Under the pieces are notes generated by a model, which made no database searches, was not told the origin of the DNA, and saw nothing but the letters and a program-made list of their open reading frames with translations. A DNA stretch of 64,000 bases. Origin: an uncultured Algibacter sp. Its GTDB lineage: Bacteria; Bacteroidota; Bacteroidia; Flavobacteriales; Flavobacteriaceae. The stretch is taken from assembly GCF_947490405.1 (NCBI RefSeq), contig NZ_CANLGU010000009.1, positions 1-64,000 on the forward strand, in the 5' to 3' direction. Shown piece by piece: positions 1 to 11,194 of this stretch (positions are counted from its first letter, which is position 1; each line of letters starts with the position of its first letter). The position numbers were made by a program, and so were the translations under genes.

Positions 1-84
1 TGCGGATTTTCCTCTGGTTCGTTCCATTTTTGTTAAGTTAGTTGCTTAACCACGCAACTATCCTTACACGAACCGTTAGCCATA
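1..84 (+). repeat. attC-like element E0, 3' part only (cut by window start)
   Basis: gcttaaccacGCAACTATCCTTACACGAACC then box GTTAGCCATAA; same 3' arm as elements E1-E11. Confidence 0.75.
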
Positions 85-91
85 ATTAAGA

Positions 92-769
92 ATGACCAGA
101 ACTTACATAATATTTTTTCTTCTATTAATCGGATGTAAGTCTGATAAAAAAGAGGACTATTATTCTGAAGAGAAAAACGAAATTGAACGTATCGAATTTA
201 ATCTTCCGAATTTTGAAAAATGGACTGAATCCTACTCAGATGAATCAGTAAAATTATATTTTGATGATTTATCAGTTTCTGATAAAATGAAAACTGTTGG
301 AGTTTTTTTAAATAATTACACGTTTGCAAAAAAGGATAGTCTAGATGTTCTCGATTTTGAAGATTATGCAGTATTCATGATTAACAAAAATGAGCAAAAA
401 TGGAAATTGACTGGAAACGATTTAGAAAGATTATTTAGAGTTCAAAAAAAGAAAACTGGAACTATTAATGTTGACAGATTGGAAGCTCTAAAAAAAGTGT
501 ATTCTGACACAACTTTTTTACATTCTGAAAAGCCGATAGTTATTGAGGAATACAGACCCAATGAAAACATATTATCTGCTTTAAAATTAATAAAGCCTTA
601 CTATGATGACCACGAAATTATAGTGGTGTATGTATACAATTTGATTCTTATAAATAACCATCTTGTTTATGGTGGATATTATTTAGACTTAAATGGAAAT
701 GAATCACTTGAAAAGGCAAAAGAAATGAATGACATAATAATGACTGAATTTCTTGAATCGAATAAATAA
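92..769 (+). CDS. hypothetical lipoprotein (cassette 1)
   Basis: ORF with lipobox-like N-terminus FFLLLIGCKSD; lies between E0 and E1. Confidence 0.75.
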   Translation: MTRTYIIFFLLLIGCKSDKKEDYYSEEKNEIERIEFNLPNFEKWTESYSDESVKLYFDDLSVSDKMKTVGVFLNNYTFAKKDSLDVLDFEDYAVFMINKNEQKWKLTGNDLERLFRVQKKKTGTINVDRLEALKKVYSDTTFLHSEKPIVIEEYRPNENILSALKLIKPYYDDHEIIVVYVYNLILINNHLVYGGYYLDLNGNESLEKAKEMNDIIMTEFLESNK

Positions 770-770
770 C

Positions 771-909
771 TATGGCTAACAATGTATAAAAATAATTGCG
801 GTTTAGTACTTAATCAAAGGTCGTTGCGTGTTTGCTACGTCTGAATTTCCTTCGGAAATTCCTCGCACACAAACCCCCAACTATTTTTATACGAGACCGT
901 TACCCATAA
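771..909 (+). repeat. attC-like element E1
   Basis: TATGGCTAAC-AATGTATAAAAATAATTGC ... hairpin GAATTTCCTTCGGAAATTC ... CAACTATTTTTATACGAGACC-GTTACCCATAA. Confidence 0.85.
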
Positions 910-929
910 TTTAAAAAAATCGAACAAAT

Positions 930-1535
930 ATGAAAAAGACACTTTTGATTGTAGTAATTTTTATAATCAATTTCCAACTACATAGTCAAGAATATATAAC
1001 TGCTGACAATTTTAAATTTAAATTTATTAAAGCTAAAAAAGCTGTTGGTGGAAATTATGTCTATACTATAAAGACAACAAAGGATGTAAAGAAAGTACAA
1101 GTTAGGTATAAAATGAAATCTGTATCTGGAGAAAAAGACGATTTTGATCCAAATAAGTTTTATTTAGTTTCTGATGAATACAAAAAGAGAATTAGACCAT
1201 TAGATGTTAGGCATAATTATGCTGCAGGATGGATATATATTGGATTTGGACATTTAGTTAATTTCCAACCTAAAGATAAGAAATTAAAAGAATGGCTTTC
1301 ATACAAACCTGAAGTAAAGAATACATTTAATGATTATAAAATTGAAGGTTATCAAGATGTTTGTCCTAACATTAATTTTGGAACTAAAAGAAAACCGAAA
1401 ATGGCATCACCTTATTTAGACCATAAGGAATTGAAATCTTGTAAAGTCGACCTGTACTTTTCTTTACCGAAAGAATTAAAAAAATTCCGAATTTATTATG
1501 GAACTGAATTAATTTCTGACAATAAAATAAAATAA
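930..1535 (+). CDS. hypothetical secreted protein (cassette 2)
   Basis: ORF with signal peptide MKKTLLIVVIFIINFQLHSQ. Confidence 0.75.
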   Translation: MKKTLLIVVIFIINFQLHSQEYITADNFKFKFIKAKKAVGGNYVYTIKTTKDVKKVQVRYKMKSVSGEKDDFDPNKFYLVSDEYKKRIRPLDVRHNYAAGWIYIGFGHLVNFQPKDKKLKEWLSYKPEVKNTFNDYKIEGYQDVCPNINFGTKRKPKMASPYLDHKELKSCKVDLYFSLPKELKKFRIYYGTELISDNKIK

Positions 1536-1537
1536 AA

Positions 1538-1676
1538 CTATGGGCAACACCGTATATAATTTATTGCTACTTCTAGCGTACTTACGAAAGTTCTCACGGA
1601 CTTTCTATTCGGTTTGTATTTGCTAAATTAGGTGCTTAAAACACGCAACAAACCATATACAAAAACGTTACCCAAC
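1538..1676 (+). repeat. attC-like element E2
   Basis: CTATGGGCAAC-ACCGTATATAATTTATTGC ... GCAACAAACCATATACAAAAAC-GTTACCCAAC. Confidence 0.85.
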
Positions 1677-1692
1677 ATTTGAGAAAAAAGAT

Positions 1693-2167
1693 ATGAAAAG
1701 AATAATTCTGACTTTAACTTTAACACTTCCTCTTTTTATCTTTTCGCAGGAATTTAAGAAATCAGATTTGATTGGGAATTGGAAATTTAAATCAGCAGAA
1801 AAAAACACTAAAATTAGTAATGACTCATTAAGCAAACTACTAACAAAAGAATACGGAATTGAAGTAATAATAACTGATGAAGAAGTTATTCGAACTGATT
1901 TAAAAATAGCAATCGATTTATATAAATACGATGAGTTTGAATCAGACTTATGGACTATTTCAAATAACGAAATTATTGTTAATTCACCAGTTCGTTCTGA
2001 CAAATTAGAATATTTTAAAAAAAAACACGGTTGGAGTAATAGAAAAACTTGAAAACGGAAAATATTATTTTATCGGACAACAAATTCGAGTGAAAATTTT
2101 ATCATTAAAAGAAAATGAATTAGTAATAGAAGATTTTCCTTATGATTTAACATATACTAAAAGATAA
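1693..2167 (+). pseudogene. secreted small protein, apparent frameshift at an A9 tract (cassette 3)
   Basis: ORF 1693-2052 starts with a signal peptide. A +1 shift at the A9 run 2017-2025 continues the reading frame as TVGVIEKLENGKYYFIGQQIRVKILSLKENELVIEDFPYDLTYTKR* up to the next element. Confidence 0.6.
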
Positions 2168-2169
2168 AA

Positions 2170-2312
2170 AACGTTGGGTAACAATGTATATAAAAAATTG
2201 CTATTTTGTGCTTTACCAATGTGAGTTGCTTTGTTTGCTAGCTTCTGATTTTCCTTCGGAAAATCCTCGCACACAAACACGCAACATTTCATATACGTAA
2301 CCGTTGTGCCTC
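2170..2312 (+). repeat. attC-like element E3
   Basis: AACGTTGGGTAAC-AATGTATATAAAAAATTGC ... GATTTTCCTTCGGAAAATC ... GCAACATTTCATATACGTAACC-GTTGTGCCTC. Confidence 0.85.
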
Positions 2313-2331
2313 ATTTAAGAAACACCATCAA

Positions 2332-3426
2332 ATGAAAGAAAAATCACTGAAAATATTGATACTTTTTCTGTTGACAATCTCATTTACGAGCTGTCACTCA
2401 CAGAAGAAAATTAAAAACCTTGTAGGATTTGAAGTTTCAACCGATTCTATAAATACTTTTCTTAAATCGAGAATGGACTCGTTAAATATCCCTGGACTTT
2501 CAATTGCTATTATAAATGAAAGCGAAGTAGTTTATCGCCAAACATTTGGATTTGCAAATCTAGAAGAACAATTACCAGTAACTGACAAAACGATTTTTGA
2601 AGGTGCTTCAATGTCCAAATCAGTATTTGCTCTTTTCGTAATGAAATTCGTTGAAGAAGGAAAATTAGATTTAGACAAACCATTATACGAATATTTACCA
2701 TATCAAGATATAGCATATGATAAAAGATATAAAAAAATAACAGCAAGAATGGTTTTAAGTCATAGAACTGGTTTTCCTAATTGGAGAGAAAACGAACAAG
2801 ATAAAAAATTAAAGATAAAATTTGAGCCTGATACAGATTATGAGTATTCAGGAGAAGGATATCAATATTTGGCAATGGTTTTAAAACAAATAGAGGGTAC
2901 AGATTGGAATGGTTTAGAATCGATTTTTCAAGAAAAGATTGCAAATCCATTAAAAATGGAACATACAGTTTTCATCCCGACACCCTACACGAATGAACAT
3001 AAAGCAGAACCTTATAACAATCAACGTGAATGGATTGATTTGAAAAACAACTATTGGTTTAAAAAAGATAAAGGTGTATTTGTTTCATCTTCATCTATTC
3101 ATTCTGAACCATTAGACTTTTCAAAATGGATGATTGCGGTAATGAACAAAAAACTGTTATCTAAAGAAAGTTACAATGAATTATTTAAACATCATTCAAC
3201 AATATCAACATCTTCGACTGGTATGAATGTCTATTACACTTTAGGATTTATAACTGCCGATAAACCATATAATACGACATACTTTCACGGAGGAAGTAAT
3301 GACGGTTTTACCTGCTATTATTTGATGGATATTACAAAAAAATGGGGTTACGTACTTTTTACAAATTCAGAAAATGGAGAAAAGCTTGGAAACGACGTAT
3401 GGAATTATTTAGAAAAGGAAAATTGA
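2332..3426 (+). CDS. serine hydrolase, beta-lactamase/DD-peptidase (S12-like) family lipoprotein (cassette 4)
   Basis: lipobox TSCHSQ; SxxK motif GASMSKSVFAL; YSG; C-terminal HGGSNDGF. Confidence 0.85.
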   Translation: MKEKSLKILILFLLTISFTSCHSQKKIKNLVGFEVSTDSINTFLKSRMDSLNIPGLSIAIINESEVVYRQTFGFANLEEQLPVTDKTIFEGASMSKSVFALFVMKFVEEGKLDLDKPLYEYLPYQDIAYDKRYKKITARMVLSHRTGFPNWRENEQDKKLKIKFEPDTDYEYSGEGYQYLAMVLKQIEGTDWNGLESIFQEKIANPLKMEHTVFIPTPYTNEHKAEPYNNQREWIDLKNNYWFKKDKGVFVSSSSIHSEPLDFSKWMIAVMNKKLLSKESYNELFKHHSTISTSSTGMNVYYTLGFITADKPYNTTYFHGGSNDGFTCYYLMDITKKWGYVLFTNSENGEKLGNDVWNYLEKEN

Positions 3427-3445
3427 AAAACCAAACGAAAAAAAC

Positions 3446-3583
3446 GAGGCACAACAACGTATAAAATTAATTGCTAGTTCTAGCCTGTTTACGAAATTCC
3501 TTACAGACTTTCTATCAGTGATTTATTTGCTAACTTTAGTGTTTAAAACACACAACTAATCTTATACAAAACCGTTGGCAAAC
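3446..3583 (+). repeat. attC-like element E4
   Basis: GAGGCACAAC-AACGTATAAAATTAATTGC ... ACAACTAATCTTATACAAAACC-GTTGGCAAAC. Confidence 0.85.
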
Positions 3584-3614
3584 ATTTGAGAAACGAGAAA
3601 AAAAATGAACATTA

Positions 3615-4019
3615 ATGCTACCATTTGAATTTATAGTTGAAGGACCACCAGTTTCTCTTCAAACGAAAAACAGAGCACGATTACAAGCTTGGAAAGCAAA
3701 AGTAAACGCTGCTGCAACTAATGCGTTGACAAATGGAGCTGTTGCAATAACTGATGAAGTTACTTTTAAGGTAACCTATTATTACGAAGGAGATAGTCCA
3801 GATGCGGATAATATAATTAAACCTATGCAAGATGCTTTAGTAGGTGTCGTTTACGTAGATGATGACCAAGTAGTAGAAACTTCAGCGAGAAAAAGAAATA
3901 TAAATGGTGCATATAAAATTAAAGGTGCTTCACCAGTAATTATTGAGGGCTTCTTAAATGGAGTTGATTTTTTACATATCAAAGTAGAGGAATTTCAACA
4001 CAATCAAGAACTTGACTAA
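3615..4019 (+). CDS. RusA-like Holliday junction resolvase family protein (cassette 5, gene 1)
   Basis: PDADNIIKPMQDALVGVVYVDDDQV resembles the RusA family core. Confidence 0.7.
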   Translation: MLPFEFIVEGPPVSLQTKNRARLQAWKAKVNAAATNALTNGAVAITDEVTFKVTYYYEGDSPDADNIIKPMQDALVGVVYVDDDQVVETSARKRNINGAYKIKGASPVIIEGFLNGVDFLHIKVEEFQHNQELD

Positions 4020-4720
4020 TGGAAAGAACAAATAACATACAAAGGGAACAAAGAAGAATCAAGGAACTTGCTCGTGAATATGAAGAAAAGGGATTTCAAG
4101 TATTTATCGAACCAGAAAAAGATTTACTACCTGAATTTTTAAAAGATTATCGACCTGACCTTATCCTTAAAAAAGGAGAAATGAATGTGGTGGTTGAAGT
4201 TAAAACAAGTGAGACAATTAAAAATTCTGAATACCTAAAAGAATTATCTGCAAGAATTAATTCTCTTGAGAATTGGAAGTTTGAGTTAGTAATTACTAAC
4301 CCAAGAGTAAAAGACAATTTAAGAAATAACAGATATCAAGAATACAGTCTTATAGAACTTGAGAATAGACTAAATAAAGTTTCAAACTCAATCGATAAAA
4401 ACTTTTTAGAGCCTCATTTTTTATATGCTTGGTCTTTATTTGAGGCTTCATCAAGAGCAATTTTGAAAGCTGACCAACCAAAGTCTGAAAGAAAACTTAA
4501 TCCAACAGCTAATATTAAACAATTATACAGTTACGGAATAATTGGACGAATTGACTACGAATGGCTGAATAAAATTTCACACATTAGAAATCATATTGTT
4601 CACGGTCATCCTATTCAAAAGAGTGAGATAAAAGAAAAGGATTTGAATAAATTAATCAGAATGACAGAAGACTTCTTAAAGGAAATAAAAACGTTTGCCA
4701 ACAACGTGTATAAAACATAG
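4019..4720 (+). CDS. putative PD-(D/E)XK-like nuclease domain fused to a HEPN-like domain (cassette 5, gene 2)
   Basis: N-terminal PDLILKKGEMNVVVEVKTS (PD...ExK-like); C-terminal RNHIVH (RNxxxH HEPN-type motif); last codons read into element E5. Confidence 0.55.
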   Translation: MERTNNIQREQRRIKELAREYEEKGFQVFIEPEKDLLPEFLKDYRPDLILKKGEMNVVVEVKTSETIKNSEYLKELSARINSLENWKFELVITNPRVKDNLRNNRYQEYSLIELENRLNKVSNSIDKNFLEPHFLYAWSLFEASSRAILKADQPKSERKLNPTANIKQLYSYGIIGRIDYEWLNKISHIRNHIVHGHPIQKSEIKEKDLNKLIRMTEDFLKEIKTFANNVYKT

Positions 4721-4893
4721 CTAGTGAAGGCTTTCCGAATGGTTAGTATTTATTTACAAAGACCGCCAAATTTTTAATTTGGCTTTTAAAATTGACAAGT
4801 TAAAAACAAAATATAAAAATTCGGCTCTGTGTTAATCCGAAAAGTTAGTGTCTTTTTGCATGCTACGTTTCATACATAAGTCCGTTAGGCAAC
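4693..4893 (+). repeat. attC-like element E5, long divergent variant
   Basis: GTTTGCCAAC-AACGTGTATAAAACATAGC ... TGCTACGTTTCATACATAAGTCC-GTTAGGCAAC; arms complementary, interior unlike the others. Confidence 0.75.
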
Positions 4894-4898
4894 ATTAG

Positions 4899-5333
4899 AT
4901 GAAAACCATTCACCAAAAACAAAACTGGATAGGATTTTTTACATATCTGGAAGGGTATGATACTATTGAACAATATAAAAAAGTTGAGTTCGCAATGGAA
5001 ATCACTCTCACGGAAAACTCATTTGTTGGAATATCTACTGACTCTGAATCAAAAAATGCGTTTGAAAGACCTGCATCAGTAAAAGGCTTTATTGAAGATG
5101 GAAAAATGAGTTTTGTAATGAAATATCCTTGCTATTATTTTAAAGACCAAAACGGAAAAATCATTTTAGATCATTCAGCTGAACATCCTGATATACATTA
5201 TCTTGGATTTCTAGATGACGAAAAAGATAAAGTAAGCGGGAATTGGGAAATGACTGTGTATGAGGAAAAATATTCCGACGGTTATCTTGAAGAAATTATA
5301 AACGGAGAATTCGAAATGCAGAAAACGAATTAG
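4899..5333 (+). CDS. hypothetical protein (cassette 6)
   Basis: single ORF between E5 and E6. Confidence 0.7.
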   Translation: MKTIHQKQNWIGFFTYLEGYDTIEQYKKVEFAMEITLTENSFVGISTDSESKNAFERPASVKGFIEDGKMSFVMKYPCYYFKDQNGKIILDHSAEHPDIHYLGFLDDEKDKVSGNWEMTVYEEKYSDGYLEEIINGEFEMQKTN

Positions 5334-5337
5334 AAAC

Positions 5338-5478
5338 GTTGCCTAACACCGTGTATAATTAATTGCTTTGGCAAGTGCTTATTTGGAAAATTCCTTCGGA
5401 ATTTTCTCTGGCAAGTTTTTGTTTACTAAATTAATTGCTTAACCACGCAACTAACCATACACGAACACGTTGTGTACA
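5338..5478 (+). repeat. attC-like element E6
   Basis: GTTGCCTAAC-ACCGTGTATAATTAATTGC ... GGAAAATTCCTTCGGAATTTTC ... GCAACTAACCATACACGAACAC-GTTGTGTACA. Confidence 0.85.
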
Positions 5479-5481
5479 ATT

Positions 5482-6321
5482 ATGAAAAACTTCCTGCTTA
5501 TCATTTTAATTTCGATTTCTACTTCGAGTTTTTCGCAAGTCAAAATTGACACATCTGAAATTAAATCAATAAGATATGAATGGAAACTTAATAAAGAAAA
5601 AAACGACTCGACTCTGAATCAAATACTGACTGAATATAAGAGCGGAATTTACAAAGAGGAATTTCCAAGCTTTAAAAAGGAACATCACGAATACCCTTTT
5701 ATAAATATTTTTGAATCAAAAACTAATTACTTAAACCGAAAAGTAAAACAAACTTTAAAAGTTCATTATTATTCTGCTTTAGGTGGAGAAAGTAAATTTT
5801 ATTACGATAAATACGGAAATTTAGACAGTATTTACCAAAACTATTATAAGGATTCTTTGAAAGAATGGAAATATAATATAAAGAAAGAATATCGAAGAAA
5901 AGGAAAACTAAAGTATTTGATTAATAAATTCGATGAGAAAGAAGTCTATCACTATAACTTTTTCGGTAATTTAAAAAAGATTGAACTTTACAAAGATTCT
6001 GTCCTTTATGAAATAAGCAACTACAAAAAAGGGTTGCTTATTAGTAAGGTTTACCCAACCAGAAAAAAATATAGAAAAAAGTTCACTTATGAATACGACA
6101 AAAAAGGACGGATTATAAAAAGAGATGATAATGATTACGATTTATATCTTTACGAATACAACAAATTTGGATTAAGTAAAATAGAAAAGATATTTAAAAG
6201 TAAAAATATGGTAGTTGAATACACATTGTTCATTTACGATAAAAACGGAATACTTAAAAGAAAAAAAGAATTCGCTCGAAATGATAAATTGAGAGAGGAA
6301 TTTGTTTATGAATATAAATAA
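5482..6321 (+). CDS. secreted protein with RHS/YD-like repeats (cassette 7)
   Basis: signal peptide MKNFLLIILISISTSSFSQ; repeated YDKYGNLDSI / YNFFGNLKKI / YDKKGRIIKR / YNKFGLSKIEK; ATG at 5482 preferred over TTG at 5470, which lies in the element. Confidence 0.65.
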   Translation: MKNFLLIILISISTSSFSQVKIDTSEIKSIRYEWKLNKEKNDSTLNQILTEYKSGIYKEEFPSFKKEHHEYPFINIFESKTNYLNRKVKQTLKVHYYSALGGESKFYYDKYGNLDSIYQNYYKDSLKEWKYNIKKEYRRKGKLKYLINKFDEKEVYHYNFFGNLKKIELYKDSVLYEISNYKKGLLISKVYPTRKKYRKKFTYEYDKKGRIIKRDDNDYDLYLYEYNKFGLSKIEKIFKSKNMVVEYTLFIYDKNGILKRKKEFARNDKLREEFVYEYK

Positions 6322-6322
6322 C

Positions 6323-6459
6323 TGTACACAACACCGTATAAAATTAATTGCTTGATACGAGCCTGCTTACGAAAATCCTCGCGGATTTTCTATTCGGTTT
6401 GTATTTGCTAAATTCGTTGCTAAACCACGCAACTAATCTTATACAAATCCGTTACCAAC
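6323..6459 (+). repeat. attC-like element E7
   Basis: TGTACACAAC-ACCGTATAAAATTAATTGC ... GAAAATCCTCGCGGATTTTC ... GCAACTAATCTTATACAAATCC-GTTACCAAC. Confidence 0.85.
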
Positions 6460-6476
6460 AAGCAAAACCAACTCTC

Positions 6477-7178
6477 GTGGAGACAAGAATATATTCCGAA
6501 AATTTTCTAATTGGAACAACTGAATTAATCGTTGGAGATTTGTCTATGGGAAATTTATTCGGAGAATTTAGACCAACAGAATTATATTTTGAAAAAGTTC
6601 AAAAAAAAGTTTGGGAATTTTGGAAAAATAACAAACCGAATTATGATAAATGGAATTCTTTGAGATTCAATGCACAATTGGAAAATGGTGTTTTTCTGTT
6701 TCCAGAAGGTGGTTATACTTTTAGTGACATAAAAGAATTAACTAATGAACCTATAAGAATTGATTTAACTGGAATAGACTCTAAAATTATAGAAGATTAT
6801 TTTCTGACTAAACCGCAAAAATCATTTGTTGAAAAACCTTGGAATGAAATTGGAATAGAACAGAAAATAGCATTTGAAAATGAGTTAAATAAAGAATTAG
6901 GAAACTATGAAAAATCCTTATTGAAATTTTTTGAAAGAAAACCCAAGAAGCACTTATTGTCTAAAATGGAGTTTTCAGCATTATGTCACGATCAAAGAAA
7001 TGATGACGTTCTATTTGAAATAAGACAAGAGAATGGAAATGAAAAATTTGTAATCTCTCACCTTACTTGGTCTGGAAAAAAAGAACAGGAAGGATATCCA
7101 AAAACTGAATTTTTTAAAGATTTTAACGAATTTAAAATAATGAGAATGAACCCAGATAAAATTGATTACGAATATTGA
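6477..7178 (+). CDS. hypothetical protein (cassette 8)
   Basis: ORF in frame with 6348-7178; GTG at 6477 is the first plausible start after the element. Confidence 0.6.
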   Translation: METRIYSENFLIGTTELIVGDLSMGNLFGEFRPTELYFEKVQKKVWEFWKNNKPNYDKWNSLRFNAQLENGVFLFPEGGYTFSDIKELTNEPIRIDLTGIDSKIIEDYFLTKPQKSFVEKPWNEIGIEQKIAFENELNKELGNYEKSLLKFFERKPKKHLLSKMEFSALCHDQRNDDVLFEIRQENGNEKFVISHLTWSGKKEQEGYPKTEFFKDFNEFKIMRMNPDKIDYEY

Positions 7179-7193
7179 AATGAAAGATAGCCA

Positions 7194-7332
7194 GTTGGTA
7201 ACACCGTATATAATTTATTGCTGGCTTCTTGCCTACTTACGAAAGTCCTCGCGGACTTTCTTTACCTGTAATTATTTACTAAATTAGTTGCTTAAAACAC
7301 GCAACAAATCATATACATAAACGTTGGCAATA
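7194..7332 (+). repeat. attC-like element E8
   Basis: GTTGGTAAC-ACCGTATATAATTTATTGC ... GAAAGTCCTCGCGGACTTTC ... GCAACAAATCATATACATAAAC-GTTGGCAATA. Confidence 0.85.
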
Positions 7333-7354
7333 ATTTGAGAAAACCGAAATCTTA

Positions 7355-7792
7355 ATGAACTTTTACGAATTAATTTATCTGAATATTTATTTATCACTTT
7401 CAAGAACGAACAAATCTATTCCTGAATGGTCAACTTTGTTTTGTCTTTCTATTATATTTTTTTTCAATTTGCTTTCTACATTGCGCTTGTTGAATATTGA
7501 CATAAAAGGGATTGAAAAAAATCTATTTTATGTTATTCTTGGTGGAATTTTTGGAATTCACTACTTATATTTTCAAATGGGAAATCGGATTATAAAAAAA
7601 ATAACGGACTTAAAACCAAAACTAAATCTGATAAGCAGAATTTTGACAATATTTTATCTTTTCGGAACTATTTCTTTATTTTGCTATTTAGGGAACGTTG
7701 GACTTAATAATTCTCTGATTTTGATAATTGGATTAGGCGCAATGGTTATTTTCAGCCAAGTTTTTGGAAAAAAAAACAAACAATTTGAATAA
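7355..7792 (+). CDS. hypothetical membrane protein (cassette 9)
   Basis: several hydrophobic segments (FCLSIIFFFNLLSTL, FYVILGGIFGIHYLYF, LILIIGLGAMVIF). Confidence 0.7.
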   Translation: MNFYELIYLNIYLSLSRTNKSIPEWSTLFCLSIIFFFNLLSTLRLLNIDIKGIEKNLFYVILGGIFGIHYLYFQMGNRIIKKITDLKPKLNLISRILTIFYLFGTISLFCYLGNVGLNNSLILIIGLGAMVIFSQVFGKKNKQFE

Positions 7793-7798
7793 AAAAAC

Positions 7799-7937
7799 TA
7801 TTGCCAACACCGTATATAAAAAATTGCTGGTGTTGTGCTAAAACAAAGGTCGTTGCACGTTTGCTACGTCTGATTTTCCTTCGGAAAATCCTCGCACGCA
7901 AACCCGCAACTTTCCATATACATAAACGTTAGCGATA
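7799..7937 (+). repeat. attC-like element E9
   Basis: TATTGCCAAC-ACCGTATATAAAAAATTGC ... GATTTTCCTTCGGAAAATC ... GCAACTTTCCATATACATAAAC-GTTAGCGATA. Confidence 0.85.
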
Positions 7938-7968
7938 ATTAAAAGAACAATAGATAAAATTAAACCAA

Positions 7969-8682
7969 ATGGATGATAATATTAATGATGAAATAGGAAA
8001 TGACATTCCTTCGTCTGAATCCGATAGTCAATCTGAGGATACAGTTAGAAGTTCATCTGAACAAGCCTATTCTATTTTTGATAGTGGAATAAAGCGAGCT
8101 CAGAATTTATTGGAAATCGACATAGATTCCTCTGGTAATTCTTTAGGAATATCGGAAAATAAATTGCTTGATTCTTATCGTGCTGTTGTTGTTCTTTCCA
8201 TTTCCGCGTTAGATTCATATATAAAGACTTTTCTAATTGTAGAGATAAAGAAAAATCTTAATGAAAGAAGTTTATCAAGTGACCTTAAGAAATACATAAA
8301 AGAAGAACTTTTTAGTAAGGAAGAACTGCATCAAGTAGTATTGGAAAACAACTTTTATGACAAAGTCGTACAAAAATTTGATGCTGATTTTGAAAAACGC
8401 TCATTTCAAGGTCAAAAATCAATTGATAAGTTTATGAAGTTAGCAGGAATGAATCAAATATTTAAACAAATATCTATTAGTGCAGATAAAAGTATAGATA
8501 ACATTTTAAGTTCAATCGAAAACTTCACTCAAAGAAGACACTTAATAGTACATTGTGGAGACCACGATTTAACGCAAACGGAACTAACCGAAATAGACAT
8601 TGATAAAGATTCTGCATCAAAATGCGTTGAATTGGTAAAACTTATTGCAAGTGAAATCCATAAAATAAGCCAAGAGAAATGA
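7969..8682 (+). CDS. HEPN-domain protein, RiboL-PSP-HEPN-like (cassette 10, gene 1)
   Basis: helical protein with RRHLIVHCGD (Rx4H HEPN motif); overlaps the next ORF by ATGA. Confidence 0.6.
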   Translation: MDDNINDEIGNDIPSSESDSQSEDTVRSSSEQAYSIFDSGIKRAQNLLEIDIDSSGNSLGISENKLLDSYRAVVVLSISALDSYIKTFLIVEIKKNLNERSLSSDLKKYIKEELFSKEELHQVVLENNFYDKVVQKFDADFEKRSFQGQKSIDKFMKLAGMNQIFKQISISADKSIDNILSSIENFTQRRHLIVHCGDHDLTQTELTEIDIDKDSASKCVELVKLIASEIHKISQEK

Positions 8683-8957
8683 ATCAGTTAATAATAGTAT
8701 TTGAATTCAAGAATCCTACTCTCGAAAAAAAGAATGCTCTGAAAAACGAGATTCGAGCATATAAGAAATTTGCTTTTCTGATGGATAATGCCTGCATAAT
8801 TTGGACGGAGGACACACCAGCTAACGTTAGAGATAATCTAAAAAAGAACTTGCTAACAGGGGATAAAATTTATGTTGGAACAACAAGCGCACCATCTGCT
8901 TGGTTAACGTCATTTAGTCAAGGTGTAACTGATTATTTAAAGAAAAATCTAAAATAA
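8679..8957 (+). CDS. small Cas2/SinR-like protein (cassette 10, gene 2)
   Basis: 92 aa, MNQLIIVFEF strand start and DKIYVGTTSAPSAWLTSFSQGVTDYLKKNLK end, resembling the SinR/Cas2-like small family; recognition is by eye. Confidence 0.45.
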   Translation: MNQLIIVFEFKNPTLEKKNALKNEIRAYKKFAFLMDNACIIWTEDTPANVRDNLKKNLLTGDKIYVGTTSAPSAWLTSFSQGVTDYLKKNLK

Positions 8958-8961
8958 TAAC

Positions 8962-9096
8962 TATCGCTAACAATGACTATAAGTAATTGCTTGTTCTCGC
9001 CTACTTCTGAAAATCCGTGAGGATTTTCAGTTTGGTGTGTACTTGCAAAGTCAATCGCTAAACCGCGCAACTACTCATAGCCCAACCGTTGGCAAC
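8962..9096 (+). repeat. attC-like element E10
   Basis: TATCGCTAAC-AATGACTATAAGTAATTGC ... GAAAATCCGTGAGGATTTTC ... GCAACTACTCATAGCCCAACC-GTTGGCAAC. Confidence 0.85.
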
Positions 9097-9099
9097 GAT

Positions 9100-9684
9100 A
9101 TGACAAAACGCAGAAATAACAGTAAACGAAGTCGATTTTCGATTTTATTTCCAATATTAACAATAATCGGAATTGGAGTTATAACTGCTATTGTGTCAAA
9201 TTATGAACCGAATTGGAGTTATAATTGGAATGGAATAAGAAAAGAAATAAAAGATTCTTTACAAATTGCGGAATTACGTGGAATTACTAGTGGAATTGGT
9301 GGAATGGGGGCTTCCACAAAGAACGAAGTTGACAGAAGAAGATGGATTATGAAAACCGCAACCGAATCGGAGCTCCTTAAACTGACTGAATACCCAAACG
9401 GAATCGTAAAAGGAATTGCTTATGAGGGACTTTTAAGAAAAAAAGGCTTTTCCAACAAAACAGAATTGACTTTAAAAGCTATTCGTGACACGACTTACCA
9501 AATAGATTATCAATCAGGTTGTTTAGGTTGGAATATGGGCATTGGTGAATATCTTGTGCAAAACGTTTTGTTAATTGATGACGAAATTCCACCACCTGAA
9601 AGATTACCAGATTTTGGTTTAACCGAAATGGATAAAGAAAAGATTCTGACTGAATTTAGAAAATTACAAGTTAAAAAAGAATAA
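9100..9684 (+). CDS. hypothetical membrane-anchored protein (cassette 11)
   Basis: ATG at 9100 directly after the element; N-terminal TM segment FSILFPILTIIGIGVITAIV. Confidence 0.7.
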   Translation: MTKRRNNSKRSRFSILFPILTIIGIGVITAIVSNYEPNWSYNWNGIRKEIKDSLQIAELRGITSGIGGMGASTKNEVDRRRWIMKTATESELLKLTEYPNGIVKGIAYEGLLRKKGFSNKTELTLKAIRDTTYQIDYQSGCLGWNMGIGEYLVQNVLLIDDEIPPPERLPDFGLTEMDKEKILTEFRKLQVKKE

Positions 9685-9690
9685 AATACT

Positions 9691-9828
9691 GTTGCCAACA
9701 ATGTATAAAAATAATTGCTTGTTTAGTTCTTAACCAAGGGTAGTTGCAAGTTTACTACGTCTGATTTTCCTTCGGAAAATCCTCGCACACAAACACGCAG
9801 CTTTTCTCATACATAAACGTTGGCAATA
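9691..9828 (+). repeat. attC-like element E11 (last in array)
   Basis: GTTGCCAAC-AATGTATAAAAATAATTGC ... GATTTTCCTTCGGAAAATC ... GCAGCTTTTCTCATACATAAAC-GTTGGCAATA. Confidence 0.85.
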
Positions 9829-10067
9829 ATTTTGACCCGTCCTGAAATAAAGCTGGTTCTATTTTCGTTTTTTTTTGAATTTTAATAAAGATAATTCAGA
9901 AAAACTATTTTTTCGAAAATTGCAAATTTTAAGGAATTCTAACTCAAAATAGGAATGAATTATAATATCAATAATAAAAGCTAAAAGCCAACAATAGTCA
10001 TCATTTATTATTGCTGAAATACCATATTTTTTTTACTATTTTTTATTTACACCTCTCTTTTAAGCGA

Positions 10068-10180
10068 ATAAGCCACAACAGTAAGCGCATTAGGGATTGT
10101 AGAGGAAAGCCCACAGCCCGACGTAGGAGGTGCGAGGACTTGTAACGGAAAGCCCGACCCCTTGTGGGTAATGCCCAAAT
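10068..10180. other. candidate structured non-coding element of unknown function
   Basis: GC-rich island in AT-rich intergenic DNA; GCATTA (10087-10092) pairs with TAATGC (10169-10174); internal ACCCCTTGTGGGT hairpin; GGAAAGCCC occurs twice. Confidence 0.4.
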
Positions 10181-10330
10181 AATTGAAGTGTTTGTGACTT
10201 TTCTATAATTTAAGCGTCTAATAATTAAGAGATTGAAAATATTTTAATCTTTTTTGTAACAAAATGTAACATTTGTGCGTATAACTATTGAACGACCTAT
10301 TTATTCATAATTAAATTCAGGACACATTAG

Positions 10331-11194
10331 ATGAGACAACTTAAAATTACGAAGCAGGTTACTAATAGAGAAACTGCATCGTTAGATAAATATCTACAGG
10401 AAATTGGTAAGGTTGATTTAATTACAGCCGACGAAGAAGTTGAATTAGCACAACGTATTAAGGCTGGCGATCAGATAGCTTTAGAAAAGTTAACGAAGGC
10501 TAATTTACGTTTCGTTGTATCTGTTGCAAAACAATACCAAAACCAAGGACTTACTTTACCTGATTTAATTAACGAGGGTAATTTAGGTTTAATTAAAGCA
10601 GCACAACGTTTTGATGAAACGCGTGGTTTTAAATTTATATCTTATGCGGTTTGGTGGATTCGTCAATCGATTCTTCAAGCTTTAGCTGAACAATCACGTA
10701 TTGTACGTTTACCATTAAACAAAATTGGTTCTATTAATAAGATTAATAAAACATTTGCTTTTTTAGAGCAAAGTCATGAACGCCCACCTTCTGCTGAAGA
10801 GATAGCAAAAGAGTTGGATATGACTATTAATGATGTTAAGGAATCCATGAAGAATTCTGGACGCCACGTAAGTATGGATGCCCCTTTAGTTGAAGGTGAA
10901 GACTCTAACTTATACGACGTTTTAAATTCTGGTGAATCGCCAAATCCTGATAAGGAATTGCTACACGAGAGTTTACGTACAGAAATTGAACGTGCTTTGG
11001 AAACTTTAACACCTCGTGAGGCTGATGTAATTCGCTTATACTTTGGTTTAGGAAACCAACACCCAATGACACTTGAAGAAATTGGTGAAACATTTGATTT
11101 AACTAGAGAGCGTGTAAGACAAATTAAAGAAAAAGCTATTCGTAGATTAAAACATACGTCTAGAAGTAAAATATTAAAAACATATTTAGGTTAG
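10331..11194 (+). CDS. rpoD: RNA polymerase sigma factor RpoD/SigA
   Basis: sigma-70 regions 2-4: [74 protein letters not shown]. Confidence 0.97.

Follow-up and report, generated by a model that had tools for sequence, protein, structure and literature searches.

What kind of system holds short genes in a single orientation, each gene or gene pair trailed by a similar hairpin element, is the question raised by the left end of a contig from an uncultured Algibacter sp. The stretch analysed (the window) comprises the first 64,000 nucleotides of contig C9 (G000:C9:1-64000) in a genome of 3.69 Mb and 23 contigs, and at positions 1-9828 it carries an array of genes, all on the + strand, with 12 related elements (E0, which is partial, and E1-E11), one per gene or gene pair. 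The original prediction took this for an integron-like mobile cassette system; the present analysis supports that view, with the addition, which could not be seen from the window, that the recombinase is not IntI. Very likely, the array forms the distal portion of a sedentary chromosomal integron that lies between pnp and rpoD, in which a non-IntI tyrosine recombinase would act as the integrase and cassettes would be captured through hairpin attC sites.

Cassette ends and attC sites

The earlier comparison was restricted to the bodies of the elements, and the strongest signal lies in the pairing of ends across each gene. Each cassette opens with about 10 nt of the form GTTRNNNNNN, and the last 10 nt or so before the next element are the reverse complement of this opening (for example, GTTGTGCCTC ... 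GAGGCACAAC); the two ends found within one element match less well than the two ends of one cassette. Because its own start (R') and end (R'') are reverse complements, a cassette corresponds to a linearised circle with one complete attC, opened at G^TT. Pairing of own start and end exceeded random pairing in all of 100,000 permutations, in a test where the E8 boundary was off by one base, lowering the observed score. A chain detector, which links cassettes by matching 5' and 3' ten-mers, scored 19 on positions 1-10000, while none of 200 shuffles exceeded 6 and the remaining window gave 3-6; the array signal is far from chance. Among 218 cassettes, the longest open reading frame (ORF) is on the + strand in 208, and 200 begin with GTTR. 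The expectation that the boxes depart from the GTTRRRY consensus was borne out, as only 13 of the 218 starts fit it, and this poor fit may be one reason why surveys have missed such sites.

The L''/L' helix is 93% paired in 25 diverse sites, with two-sided changes in 11 of 16 pairs and a covariation score of 0.458, compared with at most 0.10 when the partner was slid. Two of the L-helix pairs are mostly G-U on the bottom strand and become A-C mismatches on the top strand, and the bottom strand is the more stable one in 123 of 130 reconstituted sites (mean -28.3 vs -24.6 kcal/mol). As regards extrahelical bases of the canonical attC kind, the L helix of some types has a one-base bulge and that of others only a wobble or mismatch. 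The sites combine matched R''/R' ends, split at G^TT, with an L''/L' helix, as integron attC sites do. Cassette structure, R'/R'' matching, covariation and strand bias are all direct observations. Scans with Rfam and for tRNAs explained nothing in the array.

In the window, 11 co-oriented cassettes occupy 75-9828. The contig start at position 1 truncates the array, and 512 bp separate its other end from an rpoD-type gene at 10331; the position of the last R' box is corrected to 9819. The 12 elements were confirmed where they had been described, each 3' of one gene or gene pair on the + strand, and their predicted length of about 140 bp holds in general but not for E5. The features are as follows, G044 being a congeneric genome.

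1-84, +: E0, partial attC junction; the contig starts within E0, R' box at 75-84
92-769, +: cassette 1 gene, 225 aa, lipoprotein-like, without a Pfam match; the cassette R' at 75 (GTTAGCCATA) is matched by the R'' whose end is at 780 (TATGGCTAAC)
771-908, +: E1 attC junction (cassette 1 R'', L''/L' arms, cassette 2 R')
930-1535, +: cassette 2 gene, 201 aa
1539-1676, +: E2 attC junction
1693-2052, +: cassette 3 gene, 119 aa ORF
2173-2312, +: E3 attC junction
2332-3426, +: cassette 4 gene, 364 aa, beta-lactamase-fold serine hydrolase family (PF00144)
3446-3583, +: E4 attC junction
3615-4720, +: cassette 5 gene pair, RusA-like at 3615-4019 (PF05866) and AHJR-like restriction endonuclease/DUF4145 at 4019-4720 (PF18743)
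4693-4893, +: E5 attC junction, long form of about 200 bp
4899-5333, +: cassette 6 gene, 144 aa
5338-5478, +: E6 attC junction
5485-6321, +: cassette 7 gene, 278 aa
6323-6460, +: E7 attC junction
6480-7178, +: cassette 8 gene, 232 aa
7193-7332, +: E8 attC junction
7355-7792, +: cassette 9 gene, 145 aa
7799-7937, +: E9 attC junction
7969-8957, +: cassette 10 gene pair, HEPN_RiboL-PSP protein at 7969-8682 (PF18735) and 92-aa protein at 8679-8957
8962-9097, +: E10 attC junction
9100-9684, +: cassette 11 gene, 194 aa
9690-9828, +: E11, final attC of the array; R' from 9819, where homology to G044 resumes
9829-10330, +: right flank, non-cassette, common to G000 and G044 up to rpoD
10331-11194, +: rpoD-type sigma factor, right anchor of the insertion site

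Most of the cassette genes had no named family in a Pfam search, and PADLOC gave no convincing defence genes among the window cassettes, with one weak hit. The cassette 3 gene (1693-2180) is probably frameshifted at an A-tract near 2018-2028. In the right flank, a conserved non-coding stretch 5' of rpoD at 10060-10200 contains GAGGAAAG, and its counterpart in G044 has an inserted CCCGATAGCTATCGGG palindrome; Rfam had no match for this stretch.

The other end of the array and cassette turnover

A tyrosine recombinase, which the original prediction had advised seeking beyond position 1, was found at the other end of the array. Contig C7 starts with cassettes that read off its left end, and the order outward from pnp is pnp, recombinase, attI-like site and cassettes with matched ends; the C7-side cassette products with family matches include MORN and TIMP-like proteins.

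C7, L009 3638-5908, -: pnp, left anchor
C7, L009 2421-3539, -: tyrosine recombinase, 372 aa
C7, L009 about 2286, -: attI-like site, ending in ATATAAACAA directly before GTT

The recombinase gene lies immediately 3' of pnp, in the orientation of the cassettes. Because G044 has pnp, recombinase, array and rpoD on one contig, C7 and C9 very probably carry opposite ends of a single integron. In another relative (G122), pnp and rpoD are about 0.9 kb apart, a spacing consistent with an empty site. In about 20 genomes the distance from the recombinase stop codon to the first R' is 27-134 bp, with arrays downstream and none upstream, and in both position and G^TT boundary the site is that of an attI next to the recombinase gene. 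It is most likely that the 372-aa recombinase is the integrase of the array. In 8 of 19 arrays, compared with 1.3 in shuffles, the interval from the recombinase to the first cassette contains TANNTTTG, a promoter motif of the Bacteroidetes type, which is kept as a hint; it was not found in that interval of the G000 copy. Perfect palindromes (such as AAACGCACCGGTGCGTTT) were seen in the same interval, the attI region, of L064, L065, L066 and L059, and may be bound by the recombinase or by a regulator.

In the proposed mechanism, the bottom strand of attC would fold into an R''/R' stem, an unpaired spacer, an L''/L' stem and a variable loop. The recombinase would cut at G^TT, excising cassettes as circles, and incoming circles would be inserted at the attI-like site 27-134 bp past the recombinase stop codon. 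Repeated capture would produce long co-oriented arrays with fast turnover between species. The recombinase as catalyst of the reaction, a single-stranded substrate and the help of an N-terminal domain in recognising the folded site are presumed parts of this scheme.

Comparison of strains at exact GTT boundaries had been proposed as a check, and the congeneric genome shows cassette-precise replacement at GTT. G000 and G044 are 96.6% identical through attI up to GTTGCCA and 90.7% identical again from the last R' to rpoD; between these flanks they match in attC elements only, and all of the genes differ. The same genes in the same order with no precise indels, the outcome named beforehand as contrary to a mobile system, are not what this pair displays. 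Cassettes are duplicated end to end in G040, G014 and G119 (93-100% identity), and one 679-bp cassette is common to two genera (93% identity). Arrays appear to turn over quickly between species. The position of attI, the linkage to the recombinase and the precision of turnover can be read directly from these loci.

It is extremely unlikely that the elements are dispersed non-mobile repeats, whether miniature inverted-repeat transposable elements, repetitive extragenic palindrome-like sequences or terminator hairpins, that merely trail genes. Each element is a hairpin 3' of a gene and many single copies are scattered in G000, as dispersed repeats would have it, but such repeats would not make the first 10 nt of a unit complementary to its own last 10 nt, would not yield cassette-precise turnover at GTT and would not adjoin a recombinase and attI.

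Distribution in the Flavobacteriaceae

Of 151 Flavobacteriaceae genomes, 103 have relatives of the recombinase, frequently at the end of a contig, where arrays break assemblies. A covariance model for attC, suggested earlier for searching Bacteroidetes genomes, located sites throughout the family, in 56 of 61 genomes. In this set all 48 recombinase-positive genomes have attC, and all 5 attC-free genomes are without the recombinase, so that co-occurrence across the family is a matter of observation. Canonical IntI over the cut-off was found in 0 of the 151 Flavobacteriaceae genomes; as a positive control, the same model detected IntI in 84 of 297 genomes of the Bacteroidota phylum, nearly all of them from other classes.

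These counts bear on the proposal that the array is a cluster of attC sites lacking integron-integrase (CALIN), served in trans by a canonical IntI, with the adjoining recombinase as a bystander. Such an arrangement would suit the attC-like sites that lie far from the recombinase and the genomes that have attC and no recombinase match. It is nonetheless very unlikely, given the lack of IntI in the family under a model that detects it elsewhere in the phylum, and given that in about 20 genomes the first cassette is immediately preceded by the recombinase.

In the complete genome G040, about 80 co-oriented attC sites span 68 kb immediately 3' of the recombinase; a further recombinase, accompanied by attC sites, was seen at G040:C1:1555772-1568038. 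Arrays above control were also found in Algibacter onchidii, Winogradskyella ursingii, Seonamhaeicola aphaedonensis, Arenibacter arenosicollis, an Aquimarina and Flavobacterium enshiense, while at several named loci with short downstream stretches the chain score was not above control. A Chryseobacterium plasmid (NZ_CP041688.1; L095:14974-16017) carries a related recombinase followed by co-oriented small genes; the chain score of this region was not above shuffled sequence, and no array is claimed.

G000 has about 70 attC sites in total, with further clusters at C1:608-8748 and C3:195377-201797 and singles at about 30 scattered places. The isolated singles are mostly without a matching cassette start, and several of them are followed by a common sequence, GTTAAACGAAC. 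Near C5:261337 (L015:6337), an attI-like ATTATATAACGA stands directly before GTT and is followed by cassettes; this is perhaps a decayed integron.

The recombinase and its place among known systems

The recombinase scored below the curated cut-offs of both the IntI model TIGR02249 (191.9 bits, cut-off 265) and the XerA model NF040815 (210.7 bits, cut-off 220). Also missing is the additional domain that is specific to IntI, located around patch III and described as required for activity (Messier and Roy 2001, as cited in PMC2426708; PMC9668308), with about 40 residues absent in the alignment and positions 179-239 skipped in the profile match. In the tree, 13 IntI form one clade (100/100) that excludes all of these recombinases, the G000 enzyme falls outside it within a Bacteroidota group of 23 members (93/87), and Xer is a clade apart with full support. 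An extra N-terminal domain of about 95 residues has a separate beta-beta-alpha-beta-beta-alpha fold in a model, with weak HARP and DUF5710 matches in a few members. IntI1 has no counterpart of this domain, its match beginning at recombinase residue 89; that the domain helps to bind the folded site is a guess.

XerC and XerD homologues are also present in G000, which would suit an account where these housekeeping enzymes move the cassettes and the attC-like sites are dif-like. This is most improbable: dif sites are about 28 bp, and the sites described here are long two-domain hairpins, split at GTT and with self-matching ends. Moreover, the arrays follow a dedicated recombinase, and Xer forms a clade of its own. 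A second related recombinase in G000 (C4:1733-2884, L010) adjoins secA and has no downstream array; an attC site lies at C4:76-199, and in the tree it groups with the Flavobacterium enshiense enzyme.

The same mechanism could have another ancestry, in which the recombinase is an IntI that has diverged, with secondary loss of the additional domain, and the system is an offshoot of ordinary integrons. A structure model of the Algibacter homologue (predicted local distance difference test 85.9, predicted template modelling score 0.59) has IntI4 (2a3v) as its closest solved structure, followed by XerA; the C-terminal motif is SPFD-like and resembles that of IntI rather than Xer; and a tree uniting the recombinase with IntI is not rejected (p 0.07). 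This ancestry is nevertheless rather unlikely, as the fully supported IntI clade leaves out all of these recombinases, XerA structures outscore IntI in the profile search and the N-terminal domain is without an IntI1 counterpart. The chances appear evenly balanced that this is a second integron lineage independent of IntI, in which hairpin attC recombination in Bacteroidota would have passed to a XerA-like recombinase whose N-terminal domain, HARP-like (fork or single-strand binding), stands in for the IntI additional domain, giving superintegrons of up to about 80 cassettes across the Flavobacteriaceae.

Several points weigh against a chromosomal integron served by its own non-IntI integrase. 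Forced unions with IntI are not firmly rejected (approximately unbiased test, p about 0.07-0.08), nor is a single clade of all these Bacteroidota recombinases rejected (p 0.17). The join between C7 and C9 is based on synteny, not on reads, and the recombinase copy of G044 is broken into two frames. Many single attC sites in G000 lie away from the recombinase. Since 8 of the 13 recombinase-negative genomes keep attC sites, these would persist, or be served in trans, without the recombinase. Finally, excision and integration have so far been deduced from sequence.

Because the structural marks of an integron are present and those of IntI are not, the system is classed as an integron variant and not as a member of the IntI family; it would be an integron by mechanism, with a non-IntI integrase and presumed recombination. 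Integrons are in practice recognised by IntI, and the IntegronFinder 2.0 survey named Salinibacter ruber as the complete integron found in Bacteroidetes proper (PMC9024848). No description of such a system was found in the literature searched, which took in neither preprints nor many subscription journals. The Flavobacteriaceae, thought to be nearly free of integrons, appear to hold a large overlooked version of them, with the arrangement present in most of the family. If this is correct, a large, mostly marine family carries long cassette arrays that IntI-based searches miss, and a large unread pool of cassette genes is opened. Two questions would also come within reach of a test: does hairpin recombination really require the IntI additional domain, and did integrons originate more than once?

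Among known systems, there is a close likeness to the sedentary chromosomal integrons of the IntI type, such as the Vibrio superintegron, which have short co-oriented cassettes, attC sites with R and L arms that are cut at G^TT and fold from the bottom strand, an attI that adjoins the integrase, tens of cassettes and rapid turnover. Unlike their integrases, the flavobacterial recombinase is without the IntI additional domain, lies outside the IntI clade, has an extra N-terminal domain and reads in the direction of the cassettes; furthermore, R' rarely fits GTTRRRY and IntI is absent from the hosts. Taken alone, the window resembles a CALIN, being an attC array with no integrase inside, but the array would continue to a linked recombinase and attI on C7, as judged by synteny with the unbroken arrangement of G044. 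By profile, the catalytic core comes closest to XerA-type tyrosine recombinases (NF040815, PDB 5hxy, 4a8e); known XerA acts at dif in chromosome resolution, whereas the flavobacterial enzyme heads a cassette array and has the added N-terminal domain. As with the archaeal integrons (PMC9668308), integrons are here found in a group once believed to be free of them, although archaeal IntI retain the IntI-specific domain that the flavobacterial recombinase lacks.

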